A DNA stretch of 64,000 nucleotides from Sulfuriroseicoccus oceanibius (lineage in GTDB: Bacteria; Verrucomicrobiota; Verrucomicrobiia; Verrucomicrobiales; SLCJ01): NCBI RefSeq assembly GCF_010681825.2, contig NZ_CP066776.1, positions 1,736,001-1,800,000 of the forward strand. Reading direction: 5' to 3'. The notes under the pieces were generated by a model. It was not told the DNA's origin. It did not search any database and worked only from the letters and a program-made list of their open reading frames with translations. Of the stretch, positions 6,494-63,320 are shown one piece after another; the stretch's first letter is position 1; every line of letters begins with the position of its first letter. Both the position numbers and the translations under genes were made by a program.

Positions 6494-7876
6494 ATGAGAC
6501 GAACTCAGATTTTTCGAGGCATGATGGCGGCGGCACTTGGCGTGCTGTGGGTGGCGTCGCCTGTGGTTGGTGCGGCCGATGATGGTGCCAGGCAATTGAG
6601 TGCTGCGGCCGAGGCGGCGCGCGCGGATCTTGCCGACGCGTTGAAGCGGTTGTCGGCGCAGCGCGATGTGATTGCGGCGGAGAAGCCGGAGTTAGCGGCG
6701 GAGTTTGCCAAGGTGGAAGCGGAGTTGTTGGAGAAGAGGCGGATGGTGGAAATTGCCACCGCCGAGCGTTCCGAGCGCGATACGGTGTTGCGCGATCTCA
6801 AGCGTGATCTGGCGACGTATCAGCGCGAGGCGACTTACTTTGACGGATTGCTGACGGATCTCGGGCGGAGTCTGCGCACGGCGGCGGCAGGACCGCGTTT
6901 CGCTCCACTGGGCGAGCGCCTCGATGCGGCGGACGATCCGCTGGAGTCGCTGGTGGCTGGTGTGGAAATGCTCGAAGCCGCGCTGGGCGGGGATGTGATC
7001 GCCGGGCGGGCGGTGGCTCAGGATGGAACTCTAACCGACGGACAGTTCGTAGTACTGGGCTCAGAGTCCTGGTTTGTGGCAGACGACGGGGCAACCGTGG
7101 CTCGGGTGGATGCCACCCAGGGCGCGGACCCGCATTTGCTGCCGTTGTTGCGCGACGAGTCGGCGCAGGTGCGGCAATTGCTCGCTGGCGGGGAAGCGGA
7201 GTTGGCTCTGGACTTCACCGGGGGGCGGGCTGTCGAGCTCGAGCAACTACAAAGCGGGCCGCTGGAGTTGATCCGTAAGGGCGGTGTCTGGGTATGGCCT
7301 ATCTTGCTGATTGCTGCGGTTTCCTTGGTGTCGGCGGTCGCGAAGTGGCTGCAGATCGCGCGCATGAAGGCACCCCGCGATGGCTGGGTGGCGGGGCTTC
7401 TGGAAAACGTGCGGGCCGGCGAGATGGACCGTGCGCGTGAGCTCGCGGCTGAGCCTAACTTTCCGGCGTCTGAAATGCTGACCGCCGCGCTCGAACGGGT
7501 CGATGCCGGAGCGGATGTGGTCGAGGAGGTGATTTACGAGAAAATGATTGGAGTGCAGTCTTCGTTGCAATCCTGGTTGCCGTTCATTGCGATCACGGCG
7601 GCCACCGCGCCGTTGCTCGGGCTGTTGGGGACTGTGTCCGGGATGATCAGCACCTTCGATTTGATCACGTTGTTTGGCTCCGGCGATGCGAAGTCATTGG
7701 CAGGCGGGATTTCGGAAGCGTTGATCACGACCTTGTTCGGCCTGGTGGTGGCGATCCCTTCGCTGGTGATTCACGCACTGCTATCGCGCCGTTGTCATGG
7801 CATTCTGCAGACTTCCGAGCGACTGGGGATCACGTTTGTGAATGGCTTGCGGGTGCGCGGGAAGGAGGTGGCGTGA
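6494..7876 (+). CDS. TtpC-like MotA/TolQ/ExbB proton channel protein
   Basis: A 460-aa member of the MotA/TolQ/ExbB family with a long N-terminal extension. A signal peptide (residues 1-28) is followed by coiled coil to about residue 130 and a periplasmic region to 260. The first membrane helix is at about 268-290 (VWPILLIAAVSLVSAVA), and the channel core follows (AATAPLLGLLGTVSGMISTF and GISEALITTLFGLVVAIPS). This is the TtpC arrangement known from Vibrio TonB2, where it works beside a normal ExbB. The stop overlaps the start of the next gene by one base (TGATG), indicating translational coupling. Confidence 0.88.
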   Translation: MRRTQIFRGMMAAALGVLWVASPVVGAADDGARQLSAAAEAARADLADALKRLSAQRDVIAAEKPELAAEFAKVEAELLEKRRMVEIATAERSERDTVLRDLKRDLATYQREATYFDGLLTDLGRSLRTAAAGPRFAPLGERLDAADDPLESLVAGVEMLEAALGGDVIAGRAVAQDGTLTDGQFVVLGSESWFVADDGATVARVDATQGADPHLLPLLRDESAQVRQLLAGGEAELALDFTGGRAVELEQLQSGPLELIRKGGVWVWPILLIAAVSLVSAVAKWLQIARMKAPRDGWVAGLLENVRAGEMDRARELAAEPNFPASEMLTAALERVDAGADVVEEVIYEKMIGVQSSLQSWLPFIAITAATAPLLGLLGTVSGMISTFDLITLFGSGDAKSLAGGISEALITTLFGLVVAIPSLVIHALLSRRCHGILQTSERLGITFVNGLRVRGKEVA

Positions 7877-37757: not shown

Positions 37758-38140
37758 GGGAATGGTGACTTGGTTTGCTATTCTTATCGCTCTCGGCCTA
37801 GGAGGATCAGGATAAGGAAGAGGATAAAGATAAGGAGTCTCCGCAGCGGAGCTTGTGATGGATTGGTCGGTTTTCCGGGTAGACGGAGTCGCGCGCAACC
37901 TCAAGAGTGAGGTTGGTCCATCGGGGTGAGGTGTGCTCCGGGGAAGGGTGGCTTGGTTTGTTGCCCTTATCTTTATCCTTATCCTCTTCCTTATCCTTAT
38001 CGCCATCGCCATCGCTATCGCTATCGCTATCGCCGTCGGTCCTGGTCGGATCAGGATAAAGAAGAGGATAAAGATAACGAGTCTCCGTGGCGGAGGTTGT
38101 GATGGGTTGGTCGGTTTGCCGGGGGAGCGGAATCGCGCAT
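37758..38140. repeat. Direct duplication containing simple-sequence hairpins
   Basis: This 450-bp gene-free stretch (37695-38144) contains two diverged copies of one block: GGATCAGGATAAGGAAGAGG at 37804 and GGATCAGGATAAAGAAGAGG at 38048, each followed by AAAGATAA-GAGTCTCCG...GTTGTGATGG-TTGGTCGG. The second copy has an upstream arm (about 37964-37996, CTTATCTTTATCC type) complementary to the GGATAAAGATAAG part, with six to seven ATCGCT/ATCGCC hexamers between, so it can form a long hairpin. Confidence 0.8.
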
Positions 38141-57398: not shown

Positions 57399-57470
57399 GC
57401 ACCCGTAGTTCAATGGATAGAACGACGGTTTCCGGAGCCGTAGATGTGAGTTCGATTCTCGCCGGGTGTA
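57399..57470 (+). tRNA. tRNA-Arg (anticodon CCG)
   Basis: The cloverleaf folds fully. Acceptor GCACCCG pairs with CGGGTGT (one G-T); the D arm holds GTTCAATGGATAGAAC; the anticodon stem ACGGT/GCCGT closes the loop TTCCGGA with anticodon CCG; the T arm is around GTTCGATTC; discriminator base A. CCA is not encoded. The anticodon reads the CGG codon (Arg). It marks the left end of the apparent integrated element. Confidence 0.95.
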
Positions 57471-57547: not shown

Positions 57548-57610
57548 TGATACCAGTTTCGGCTCGTTTCGGCCTGTTTCCGTTCGTTTTTTGGTATCAG
57601 ATTGGTATCA
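57548..57610. repeat. Short repeats next to the tRNA (candidate integrase/excisionase arm sites)
   Basis: TGATACCA (57548-57555) is followed by three decamers of the form TTTCGGCTCG, TTTCGGCCTG, TTTCCGTTCG (57557-57586), then two 11-bp copies TTGGTATCAGA/TTGGTATCAGT (57591-57612), whose core TGGTATCA is the reverse complement of the first site. The 432 bp from 57472 to 57903 hold no other supported feature; the short frame on the minus strand is not convincing. Confidence 0.6.
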
Positions 57611-57903
57611 GTTTGCGAGGGCGAGCGAGCAATACGCGACGGTGGGGCAGTTGGGATTACGTGAGTTCCCCCGAACTTGGTCGAACCGGATGGTAGAATT
57701 TACCGATTTTTTTGGCAGGGCTGCATCTTGGACCTTCCGAGCGAAGATGCTGCACGCAAACCCATCGACACATGGCCTGTGGGTACTGCCTATCACGAGC
57801 CCCATTCAATGCCCCTAGTTTTGGTGGAGAAAAAAAACAGCTTCTTTGCGTAAGAGTAGATTCTGCGATGACGTTTGGTCGACACCTTTAGCAGTTAGAA
57901 ATC

Positions 57904-59391
57904 ATGTCAGATAAATCCCGATCGCACGACGGTAAGAGCTTGCCAACCCAGTTTGAGCTGTCCCAGCTAGCAGCGTTAGTGGCAGACAAATCGATATTTA
58001 CTCAGGCTGATTTTAGGGGGGATTTTAACGCAGTCGAAGCAGTGAGGCGCGCAATGAACGTCTGGCGGGCTGCTGGCGAGGAACTCCATCGTCAGCATGA
58101 GCCTCAACCTGTAAGGAGCAAGCCATCCCACCGGGATCTCACTGATCAAGAGAAGAATGTCGCAAAGGAATTTGCGGTGAATGGTGAATCTCGCTCGTTC
58201 CATGGTTGGTCGGGTGGTGGCTTGGCTGAGAATGACCCGCAATTGAGGGTGAGTTTCGCTGACTTTCGCAAAGAAGCGACTGGGCTAAAGAATGCGACAC
58301 AGCAGTTGAAGTCCGTTTGTCAATGGTGGTGGGACCAGAATATTGGAGGTGAAACTGGCGATGATTTATTCGATCCGAATAATCTCGAGTTTTGCATCAA
58401 TCGGGAAGATAAAGGTTACCTGTCGGCCCTAAAGACAAAGATTCGTCGATTAGAATCGAAGCTGAAAGGGAGCACTGAGCTGGACAAGGGAGCGGAGCTG
58501 GACAAGGGAGCGGAGCTGGATAAGGGAGCTGAGCTGGATAAGGGAGCTGAGCTGGATAAGGAGGCTGAGCTGGATAAGGGGGCTGAGCTGGACAAGGGGG
58601 CTGAGCTGGACAAGGGGGCTGAGCTGGATAAGGGAGCTGAGCTGGATAAGGGAGCTGAGCTGGATAAGGAGGCTGAGCTGGATAAGGGGGCTGAGCTGGA
58701 CAAGGGGGCTGAGCTGGACAAGGGGGCTGAGCTGGATAAGGGGGCTGAGCTGGATAAGGGAGCTGAGCTGGGTAAGGGAGCTGAGCTGGATAAGGGAGCT
58801 GAGCTGGACAAGGGGGCTGAGCTGGACAAGGGGGCTGAGCTGGATAAGGGGGCTGAGCTGGATAAGGGAGCTGAGCTGGACAAGGGGGCTGAGCTGGATA
58901 AGGGAGCTGAGCTGGATAGGGGGGCTGAGCTGGACAAGGGGGCTGAGCTGGACAAGGGGGCTGAGCTGGATAAGGGGGCTGAGCTGGATAAGGGGGCTGA
59001 GCTGGATAAGGGGGCTGAGCTGGATAAGGGGGCTGAGCTGGATAAGGGGGCTGAGCTGGATAAGGGGGCTGACCAGGACAATGGTGCTGCGACTATCACA
59101 AAGCTTGAGAGGATCTGGCTTGAATTTCAATTGGCTGAAGCACAGAGGGAGCTATTATCCTACGAGCCGACTGAGAAGGGAACCATTGAGGAGGCCGATG
59201 CGAGGCTGGTGAAAGCTCGGGCAGCTCATTCACAAGCTGAATGGGCGCGTCTTTGGAGTGATGAAGAGGAACAGCAGATGCTCAAGAATGCGTGCCAAAA
59301 TTGGTGGGGCGAAGGCGGAAAAACAGCGGCTGAGGCTACCAAGTATTTGTGTCGGTACCGGTTGTGGAAGTCGCTCGGCGGGCAATTGTAG
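57904..59391 (+). CDS. Large repeat protein with 33 hexapeptide repeats
   Basis: A 495-aa protein of no known family. Residues 1-191 are polar and contain a LKSVCQWWWDQNIGG segment; residues 192-389 are 33 copies of the hexapeptide ELDKGA (variants ELDKEA, ELGKGA, ELDRGA), then one degenerate copy; the C-terminus (396-495) has another related segment, LKNACQNWWGEGG, which looks like a copy of the N-terminal one. No signal peptide or membrane helix. It is the first gene of the element and its repeat-rich, charged middle is probably extended or helical. Confidence 0.8.
   Translation: MSDKSRSHDGKSLPTQFELSQLAALVADKSIFTQADFRGDFNAVEAVRRAMNVWRAAGEELHRQHEPQPVRSKPSHRDLTDQEKNVAKEFAVNGESRSFHGWSGGGLAENDPQLRVSFADFRKEATGLKNATQQLKSVCQWWWDQNIGGETGDDLFDPNNLEFCINREDKGYLSALKTKIRRLESKLKGSTELDKGAELDKGAELDKGAELDKGAELDKEAELDKGAELDKGAELDKGAELDKGAELDKGAELDKEAELDKGAELDKGAELDKGAELDKGAELDKGAELGKGAELDKGAELDKGAELDKGAELDKGAELDKGAELDKGAELDKGAELDRGAELDKGAELDKGAELDKGAELDKGAELDKGAELDKGAELDKGAELDKGADQDNGAATITKLERIWLEFQLAEAQRELLSYEPTEKGTIEEADARLVKARAAHSQAEWARLWSDEEEQQMLKNACQNWWGEGGKTAAEATKYLCRYRLWKSLGGQL
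58477..59070 (+). repeat. 33 x 18-bp in-frame tandem repeat
   Basis: Exactly 33 units of 18 bp, typical form GAGCTGGATAAGGGGGCT, with GAT/GAC and GGA/GGG/GAG variants. Units 3-8 (58513-58620) and 9-14 (58621-58728) are identical over 108 bp, showing a block duplication. A degenerate unit follows at 59071-59088. Confidence 0.97.
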
Positions 59392-59966
59392 GGATTGATC
59401 AAGTGGGCGGGCAATGCCTCGTCTCTTCTGGGGGACGCTACAGGATGATGTGTTGTCATCTGCTGGCGTTGAGTCGTGTCGACAGCTGAATAGGTCAGTC
59501 GTAGTCCCTCATATCGATGGCGTGATAGATCGCCTGAAGAGGTGGAGGCTCAGCATGATGGAACGCTCGGCTATGAATGATCTAGCCTAACTGGTTGGAT
59601 TGTGGGTGATCTCTGACCCGGCTCAGGTCAGAGTGAGCTTCCCCCGATTTAGTCCTGATCGCTGGTGAGCGAGGCTACTCGTTGGTCGCGGCGGCGGAAA
59701 CGTGAGGCTGATTAGTGTTGATCGAATTTTTTCTCAAAAAAAAATGATTTTATCGGACTGGGGGACGTGGTGGTGATTGTTCCGGCAGATGCCTCGTTCG
59801 TTTCAATGTAGCTCCAGTTCGTGAGGCGTACCTTTCAATCCGAGGCTGGAGTTGCGCTTAATCTTTCAATTTCCGGGTTGAAGCTTACAGCCTGTGTCTT
59901 TTGTATCTGCTTGGTGCAGAGTGGGTTGGGTTGACTGTCTGGTGTGTTTCGGTGATGGGTAGATCC
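59392..59966. other. 575-bp gene-free stretch, with one perfect hairpin
   Basis: No reading frame is convincing. A hairpin with 8-bp stem CTCTGACC/GGTCAGAG lies at 59609-59631, and an A/T run (GAATTTTTTCTCAAAAAAAAA) at about 59729-59750. It probably holds the promoter of the excisionase-like gene; I cannot place it exactly. Confidence 0.55.
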
Positions 59967-60161
59967 ATGAAGCAACTACCACAGATCACGAAACATGACG
60001 AATCGCTCATCACGACCCGCGAACTTGCCCGAAGGCTAAAGGTCACTGAGCGGACCATTGAGAACTGGCGCAGGGATGGGCGGATCCCTGCGCTGAAGAT
60101 TGGTCGTGCCGTGCGGTTCCTGTGGAGTGATGTGATCGACGCTCTCAAGTCACCCGAATAA
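59967..60161 (+). CDS. Excisionase/AlpA-like helix-turn-helix protein
   Basis: A 64-aa DNA-binding protein of the excisionase (MerR/AlpA, HTH_17) type: LITTRELARRLKVTERTIENWRRDGRIPALKIGRAVRFLWSDVIDAL over residues 13-59, in pieces ITTRELARRLKVTERTI and IPALKIGRAVRFLWSDV. Such proteins direct excision or control gene expression in integrated elements. Starts at 59955 or 59901 are possible; 59967 gives the shortest conserved form. Confidence 0.85.
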   Translation: MKQLPQITKHDESLITTRELARRLKVTERTIENWRRDGRIPALKIGRAVRFLWSDVIDALKSPE

Positions 60162-60659: not shown

Positions 60660-61802
60660 ATGAAGATTTCAGATGCGGCGGATCGTCGCAAGGAAACAAT
60701 CAAGAGTAGGGTCCGCGATGTGCTCGATGCACTCAGGATTGAAACCCACGACCGTGGGGCATATGTGATGTTCCGGTGCCCCTGCCTCGAGCACGATGAC
60801 AACACCCCTAGTGCGGTCTTGTACCGGAATGCGCAGTACGTCGAGTGCTTCGGCTGTGGGTGGAGGGGAGATGCCTTGGACGTCATTGCCTTGAAGCGGG
60901 GGTTGGATGTTCAAGTCGAGTTCCCGGAAGTCCTTGATGAGGGGGCGCAGCTCCTGGACTTGCCAAGTTCACCTCGTGATTCAGGGGCGATTAGCTCCAA
61001 AGATCGGGAGACGAAGCGTAAAGAGCGCAGAGCTAAGAAGGAGCATCGCCAGAGGGCGATCGAGCGCGCCAAGCAGGAAGTCGACCGCATCATTGAAGCC
61101 TCCGGCGATAGCAATCTTTCGTATGACGAAATGGCGAAGGCTCTGGTCGATGCGTCTCCGATTCCGGTTCCTGATTCGGAAGCATCAGAATCAGCAGCTC
61201 ATCTGATGGTTCGGACTCTCTTCGCCGGTAAACGGATTTGGCTTGGGCGTTTTTCTTCTGATGGAATTCCCAAAGGGAGGATTGTCGACGTGACGGAAGA
61301 CTCTTTGGTGTGTGAGCTCCAGGCAGCAAAAGCCAAAGGAAACGACCTGCGTCTGACTCCGAGCACTTACCTGTGTATGCAAGATCACCGTCGTGGAGAG
61401 AATGTGCATGAGCAGTGCTATGCGGTGCTGGAAATGGACGAGCTTCGGGGGCGTAAGCCTGAATCGGCCGATGAGATTGAGGAGCTGAAGTGTCGTTGCT
61501 TGATCTTGATCAAGTGGTTGACCGAGCACGGAGTGATCAGGCCGGTCGCCGTAGTGGATACTGGCAATAAGTCACTTCATGTGTGGATCGAGGCTCCCTC
61601 TGAGGATCGTGCGCAGGACGTGCTCGATCAAGTTGATGCGATGGGCTTCGACTTGAGGTCTTACAAAAACAAGGTCGGACCGTTCCGCTTGCCGGGCTGT
61701 GTTCATAGCGAGACCAAGCGTGAGGCTCGGTTGCTATGGCTAGCCCCCCCTTCGGGAGGCACGGAGGCAGTTGAGACAGGTAGCACTTGTGAGAACCAGT
61801 AA
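60660..61802 (+). CDS. CHC2 zinc-finger primase with AEP-like motifs
   Basis: A 380-aa protein. Residues 40-66 form a CHC2 zinc finger (C42-x2-H45, TPS, C63-x2-C66), the DNA-binding part of primases. A basic linker follows to about 150. The C-terminal part lacks a TOPRIM but shows archaeo-eukaryotic-primase-like motifs: hhExDE (E258, D260, E261), N-K-S-L-H (303-307), and FRLPG (R343-G346). I read it as the replicative primase (or primase-polymerase) of the element. The next gene starts 15 bp later. Confidence 0.75.
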   Translation: MKISDAADRRKETIKSRVRDVLDALRIETHDRGAYVMFRCPCLEHDDNTPSAVLYRNAQYVECFGCGWRGDALDVIALKRGLDVQVEFPEVLDEGAQLLDLPSSPRDSGAISSKDRETKRKERRAKKEHRQRAIERAKQEVDRIIEASGDSNLSYDEMAKALVDASPIPVPDSEASESAAHLMVRTLFAGKRIWLGRFSSDGIPKGRIVDVTEDSLVCELQAAKAKGNDLRLTPSTYLCMQDHRRGENVHEQCYAVLEMDELRGRKPESADEIEELKCRCLILIKWLTEHGVIRPVAVVDTGNKSLHVWIEAPSEDRAQDVLDQVDAMGFDLRSYKNKVGPFRLPGCVHSETKREARLLWLAPPSGGTEAVETGSTCENQ

Positions 61803-61817: not shown

Positions 61818-63320
61818 ATGCTGAATATTACATGTTTTCCAGATGCTCCAAGCGCAGAGAACCCGTTGCTGAGAATTCTGCGCGCACCGATGCCTGCGTC
61901 CGCCGAGCTCCCGGAAAGGGGCTCTGGATCCGGTTCGCCCGATCTGACAGAGGAGGAGCTTGAGGCGATCCGCCGGGCATCCTATGACAAAGCGAATACC
62001 TATTACAATGGAGAGACCCAGCAGTTCTATGTTCGGGTCTCCGGCGATAGGTATCAAGTGCGCTCGGAGAGGGAGCTCAGGCGCTTTATGGAGGCCTCGG
62101 GAGTTGTCGGTAAGGAGGCTCAAAATAGCGATCTGGTGGATATCCAGCTGACGCATCGAGTTGAATATGCTCACCCATTGAGCGGGCATGATGCCGGAGT
62201 GGTGGACCTAGGGAATACCAAATTGCTGATCACTAATTCGCCGCCTCGGATCGTGCCTCAAGCGGGTGATTGGCCGACCATACATGGCTTTTTGCGCGCT
62301 CTCTTCGGTGCGGAGGATCAGGTTCAGGTCTTCAAGCAATGGCTGAAGCTTGGCTATGAGCTCATCCACTGTGGTGGTGGGCAGAAGCAGAGCCAGCTGT
62401 TGTGTTTGATTGGTGCCGCCGGCTGTGGGAAGTCCCAGTTGTCCCGACACATTATCGGGCCTGTTCTTGGCCGATCAGGCTCCGGAGTAGAGTTGTATTC
62501 CAACACCGATTTCAATGCTTCTGTGTTCGCCCTTGAGCTCCTCGAGTTGGACGACGTTCCAATCGGCCGGGGATTGGGAGGTCGCGATAGGTTCATGGCC
62601 CAGACCAAAGAGGCTTTGGTTGCCAACAGTCTTTTTTGCAACCCCAAGGGGGTGAATGGTTACCAGGTTTCCCCAAAGTGGCGGCTGGTCATGATGATGA
62701 ATGATGACCCTGAGCTGCTTGAGGAATTCCCGCTCAATGTTTCTGGGTGGGATGACAAGGTGATCATGCATCGCTGCCAGGACGCCAGCCAGCTTCTCGG
62801 ATCGTCAACTGATGAGATGGCGAGGTTTGATGAAGCGGTGAGGAGGGAGTTGCCAGCCTTCATTCATCATCTCGTTAACTGGGAGTGTGACCCATGCTAT
62901 CGGAGTTCTCCGGGTGAAGGTACTCGCTTTGGGGTCGATTCCTATAAGCATCCCGCATTGGTGCGCGAAGTCTTCGAGAACAGCAAAGAGGCGCAGATGG
63001 AGCAGCTTCTGATCATCGCTCACAGAAACCGAGTGGTGAGAGATGCGCTGAAATCAGACGGGCAGGCAGATCCGACAGCAAGCTACTGGTGGAATCATTC
63101 CGACTTTCGCTCATGCATGGACCACTCTGACCGGGAAAGAGCCGATAGGCTGGTGCCAGATCCTCAACGGTTTGGCACGATGATGGCGAGGCTGAGTCGT
63201 TCATCCGAGTTGCAGGGGCGACTTGAGAGACGTCATGGCAACCGGCGGAACGAGTGGGAGTTTACCCCGAATCTAGTGCAGGGAGTCTTACCTGAGACGG
63301 ACCCATCTACCGGAAGTTAG
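61818..63320 (+). CDS. SF3-type helicase / phage-plasmid primase-family ATPase
   Basis: A 500-aa protein. The ATPase core shows GAAGCGKS (Walker A, residues 199-206) and ALELLELDDVP (Walker B, about 239-249), then KWRLVMMMNDDPE and a GWDDKVIM loop as in superfamily 3 (D5/DUF5906-like) replicative helicases. The N-terminal ~150 residues are of unknown type. Starting 15 bp behind the primase, it would unwind the element's origin. The iteron cluster begins at its stop codon. Confidence 0.82.
   Translation: MLNITCFPDAPSAENPLLRILRAPMPASAELPERGSGSGSPDLTEEELEAIRRASYDKANTYYNGETQQFYVRVSGDRYQVRSERELRRFMEASGVVGKEAQNSDLVDIQLTHRVEYAHPLSGHDAGVVDLGNTKLLITNSPPRIVPQAGDWPTIHGFLRALFGAEDQVQVFKQWLKLGYELIHCGGGQKQSQLLCLIGAAGCGKSQLSRHIIGPVLGRSGSGVELYSNTDFNASVFALELLELDDVPIGRGLGGRDRFMAQTKEALVANSLFCNPKGVNGYQVSPKWRLVMMMNDDPELLEEFPLNVSGWDDKVIMHRCQDASQLLGSSTDEMARFDEAVRRELPAFIHHLVNWECDPCYRSSPGEGTRFGVDSYKHPALVREVFENSKEAQMEQLLIIAHRNRVVRDALKSDGQADPTASYWWNHSDFRSCMDHSDRERADRLVPDPQRFGTMMARLSRSSELQGRLERRHGNRRNEWEFTPNLVQGVLPETDPSTGS

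Follow-up and report, generated by a model that had tools for sequence, protein, structure and literature searches.

An in-frame 18-bp coding minisatellite, probably encoding an acidic interdomain tether, in a gene of a likely tRNA-Arg island of Sulfuriroseicoccus oceanibius

Within the 64,000 nucleotides of S. oceanibius DNA analysed here (contig NZ_CP066776.1, positions 1,736,001 to 1,800,000; hereafter, the window), an 18-bp sequence is tandemly repeated 33 times in the middle of a 495-aa ORF. In-frame repeat expansion is of a familiar kind, and this array is an ordinary example of it. The reading we consider likely is that of a coding minisatellite situated where the two end regions of an accessory protein of the island meet; there it would form an acidic, probably disordered tether, adjustable in steps of six residues. 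The role of tether is suggested by the position of the array and by its composition. The gene and its parts are as follows.

57904..59391, + strand: 495-aa ORF carrying the array, most likely the island's first gene; its N-terminal region has a paralog in the genome
57904..58476, + strand: N-terminal region, residues 1-191, homologous by BLASTP to the repeat-free paralog L009:10363-11052(-)
58477..59070, + strand: coding minisatellite (ELDKGA)33, 33 units of 18 bp, residues 192-389, net charge -34
58513..58728, + strand: duplicated block, units 3-8 (58513-58620) identical to units 9-14 (58621-58728), from sequence comparison and shuffling
59071..59088, + strand: decayed 34th unit, DQDNGA, matching the consensus unit at 13 of 18 bases
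59071..59388, + strand: C-terminal region, residues 390-495, for which no relatives were found

As the first-pass annotation had described, the array consists of 33 ELDKGA-type units of exactly 18 bp, all in frame and free of indels, although their number in a public assembly could be off because the array exceeds the length of a short read; Tandem Repeats Finder gives the same picture (period 18, 33.2 copies, 0% indels, score 1000). Seven distinct unit sequences occur, with the top three types making up 27 of the 33 units, and at the peptide level ELDKGA (29/33) is accompanied by ELDKEA (2/33), ELGKGA (1/33) and ELDRGA (1/33). That only synonymous or mild changes are present, as was originally proposed, is slightly generous, since the G to E change in two units and the D to G change alter the charge. 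Both G to E units are plausibly the product of one event copied by block duplication. The reported 108-bp identity of units 3-8 and 9-14 was borne out; compared at an offset of six units, the sequence is in fact identical over a run of 122 bp. When unit order was shuffled in 20,000 trials, a non-overlapping repeated block of at least six units appeared in 1.4% of them (P 0.014), and the 12 observed pairs of identical neighbouring units exceed the 6.7 expected under such shuffling (P 0.017). The duplicated six-unit block and the shuffling tests thus support growth of the array by block duplication or unequal exchange, which had also been suggested from the sequence.

Such an array would have begun as an 18-bp stretch duplicated locally where the end regions join, and slippage together with unequal exchanges, involving one or several units at a time, would then have expanded it into a 198-residue, strongly acidic tether. 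As 18 bp is divisible by three, each gain or loss of a unit changes the length of the protein by six residues without breaking the gene, and the array would therefore tune the distance between the end regions, with no on/off switching of the gene. It is reasonable to expect that the array differs between cells by whole units. Two ORFs on the minus strand overlie it (58416-59099 and 58450-59130) and encode serine/leucine-rich repeats; they are long because the 18-bp unit is free of stop codons in those frames and, being by-products of the repeat, should not be annotated as genes. Hairpin energies of a single strand of six units are modest. Elsewhere in the window, at 37802-38038, there is a cluster of short, imperfect tandem repeats with units of 6, 12 and 18 bp.

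The surroundings of the gene point to a mobile element, of which the following features lie in the window.

57399..57470, + strand: intact tRNA-Arg(CCG), left attachment site of the likely island (ARAGORN, Rfam; repeated 3' half)
59901..60161, + strand: small HTH_17 protein (excisionase/AlpA-like), island neighbour (Pfam HTH_17, E 2.9e-11; PHROG excisionases)
60660..61802, + strand: primase-like protein with a CHC2 zinc finger, island neighbour (Pfam PF01807, E 1.3e-6)
61818..63320, + strand: DUF5906 helicase-like protein, island neighbour (Pfam PF19263, E 3.9e-7)

The array ORF starts 433 bp after the end of the tRNA-Arg(CCG) gene (57470). Around 49.8 kb downstream, a fragment corresponding to the 3' half of this tRNA (genome 1843157-1843229, window-equivalent 107157-107229) is called a tRNA by ARAGORN, yet it is not preceded by a matching 5' half, and a gene for a 389-aa tyrosine integrase adjoins it. 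In a genome of the same genus, the tRNA-Arg is closer to the distal fragment (93% over 44 bp) than to the near, intact one (83% over 70 bp), which would be expected had a new 3' half arrived with the element. With the 3' part of the tRNA directly repeated at the far end, the integrase beside one end and the same-genus comparison all in agreement, a tRNA-inserted genomic island about 49.8 kb long is most likely present here (window 57399 to window-equivalent 107229, genome 1793399-1843229), with the array gene as its first gene. Beyond the helicase-like gene come a type I restriction system, a pair of DUF262-like proteins and a PDC-S37/Hhe-like protein of very large size, and further to the right, still between both tRNA copies, a 1924-aa RHS-like gene and others. 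The restriction system, the DUF262-like pair, the giant PDC-S37/Hhe-like protein and a GIY-YIG-like protein form a defence cluster of the island. Just within the left end, at window 57591-57611, two direct TTGGTATCAG motifs lie 11 bp apart, and related GGTATC motifs are found near the far tRNA fragment; these are perhaps integrase arm sites. Judging by the position of its gene, the array protein perhaps serves the island in regulation or replication.

The earlier label 'repeat protein' proved misleading, as the array is flanked by an N-terminal region of 191 residues and a C-terminal one of 106 residues, in which an LKNACQNWW motif weakly resembles the N-terminal LKSVCQWWW. The whole 495-aa protein matched no Pfam family at E 0.1 and, by sequence, had no relative of note in the Protein Data Bank. 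Matches to PHROG 5353 and 819 fell on the array and vanished when the end regions were searched alone, a search that returned nothing of note. The N-terminal region does have a paralog in the same genome, a repeat-free protein of 229 aa encoded at L009:10363-11052 on the minus strand (27% identity over 141 aa, pairwise BLASTP E 8e-9; E about 3e-5 to 4e-5 in genome searches, 3.1e-5 in one of them). The two proteins have the N-terminal region in common, and both are encoded in an integrated element with a tyrosine integrase, but the paralog contains neither the array nor a matching C-terminal region; the array is therefore not a fixed part of that family. The paralog gene directly follows its integrase, and its element also encodes an AAA_25 protein and a terminase small subunit. 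This second integrated element (L009:6326-12472, genome 3276326-3282472), which includes a primase-like protein as well, has a gene layout resembling that of a phage satellite. A third one (L026:8516-18005) comprises an integrase, a P4-type primase-like protein and a further primase-like protein, the latter closely resembling the one encoded in the second element.

Searches with the whole protein, the N-terminal region, a two-sequence alignment or the paralog retrieved no relatives from GTDB contigs or viral contigs, and the genomes of the order contained none beyond the paralog. Weak matches in two genomes (G103 and G138) were discarded, their frames looking unrelated, as were phage and plasmid matches, which reflected low-complexity similarity to collagen-like, tail and other repeat proteins. 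The array gene is absent from two other genomes of the source family; the ELDKGAELDKGA pattern occurs in the source genome only, among 388 genomes of the phylum, and is missing from viral contigs. The array gene is thus known from one genome.

Charged residues with alternating signs make up 51% of the array, and its isoelectric point is 4.25. For well-mixed polyampholytes of this kind, polymer rules predict an extended coil. AlphaFold models, run without an alignment (a mode in which the method handles repeats poorly) and confident in no part, are in line with this prediction: 23 units alone (138 residues) formed neither helix nor strand (pLDDT 51), and in the full protein (mean pLDDT 37) both ends were drawn helical, with the array almost devoid of secondary structure. 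The array is thus probably a disordered, extended acidic polyampholyte, and the end regions may be mostly helical. The models were too poor for a fold search. We consider it very unlikely that the hexapeptides instead stack into a solenoid, be it a left-handed beta-helix like that of hexapeptide acyltransferases or another rod, which would act as a rigid rod or binding filament. Left-handed beta-helices follow the short hexapeptide rule [STAV]-x-[LIV]-[GAED]-x-x, and A-E-L-D-K-G obeys it; however, the full PROSITE hexapeptide pattern is unmatched, neither the bacterial transferase hexapeptide family nor any other in Pfam matches at E 0.1, strands are absent from both low-confidence models, and the Protein Data Bank holds no relative by sequence. 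Of the two roles put forward in the first-pass annotation, spacer or binding filament, the former fits the location of the array between the end regions and its acidic composition, and the latter is unsupported.

The same 18-bp units might, in principle, serve at the DNA level, as iterons of an intragenic replication origin bound by a replication initiator, an arrangement known from phage lambda, where iterons lie within gene O. The length of the unit would suit iterons, and the island's HTH, primase-like and helicase-like genes are close by. Nevertheless, we regard such an origin as extremely unlikely: 33 units are far more than is usual for iterons, the synonymous positions of the units vary, no A+T-rich stretch adjoins the array, the paralog in the other element has no such array, and the N-terminal region shows no DNA-binding match in Pfam or PHROG.

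Whether the peptide is under selection bears on a further alternative, that the array is a neutral by-product of slippage in a little-constrained island accessory gene, has no role and persists because its 18-bp unit leaves the frame intact. It had been argued that frame conservation suggests selection; this part of the claim is weak, because a period of 18 bp gains or loses whole codons only, and exchanges of 18-bp units both keep the frame and homogenize the array. The types of substitution also fit neutrality: among the seven distinct changes in the units, four are synonymous and three alter an amino acid (P 0.06-0.15, neutrality not rejected), and among transitions alone, three of six are synonymous (P 0.43, neutrality likewise not rejected). 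The frame-neutral period, the paralog without an array and the failure to find a relative conserving it in the genomes of the order or in the 388 of the phylum are all compatible with a neutral origin. In contrast, the spectrum of units argues for constraint, as only 4 of the 33 differ in peptide and 19 differ only synonymously from the commonest unit, a combination of few peptide-changing and many synonymous units reached in 0-5%, and mostly in <1%, of neutral turnover simulations in which exchange size, transition bias and rate were varied. This spectrum statistic was picked after seeing the data and depends on the model, so that the synonymous excess lends modest, post hoc support to purifying selection on the array peptide. 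On balance, we view a purely neutral array as unlikely and favour the interdomain tether.

Coding minisatellites are in-frame variable tandem repeats, for which a review stresses cell-surface genes (PMC3899988). Our array shares with them near-identical tandem copies inside an ORF, a unit longer than 10 bp and divisible by three, and internal duplication of blocks (here, units 3-8 equalling 9-14); it differs in residing in an island accessory gene without a family match and in having been seen in one genome. A comparable architecture occurs in the CobS-like AAA ATPase WP_129545930.1 of the Aliivibrio salmonicida plasmid pRVS1-224, in which a 36-bp unit is present in 14 copies coding AIDAKAELDAQA. 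There, too, a near-perfect in-frame repeat on a mobile replicon encodes a charged segment that separates the N-terminal region from the C-terminal one, but the flanking regions are unrelated and the unit is another, which makes the likeness one of convergence, not homology. That plasmid has two coding minisatellites that keep the frame (36 bp x 14 and 39 bp x 7, at L014:4241-4751 and 7446-7719), located in nearby CobS-like and vWA-domain genes.

A more far-reaching version of the tether, which we hold to be very unlikely, would place the protein in a new family whose genes lie close to integrases and to the ends of islands. Its reach, set by the number of units, would adjust a process of the island such as excision or replication; if this were true, in-frame gain and loss of units would make the cells of a population differ in island activity. 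The array also cautions against taking an intact frame, on its own, as a sign of selection where the repeat period is a multiple of three. As an in-frame coding minisatellite in a gene of a mobile island, probably acting as an interdomain spacer, it is a further clean example of its kind.
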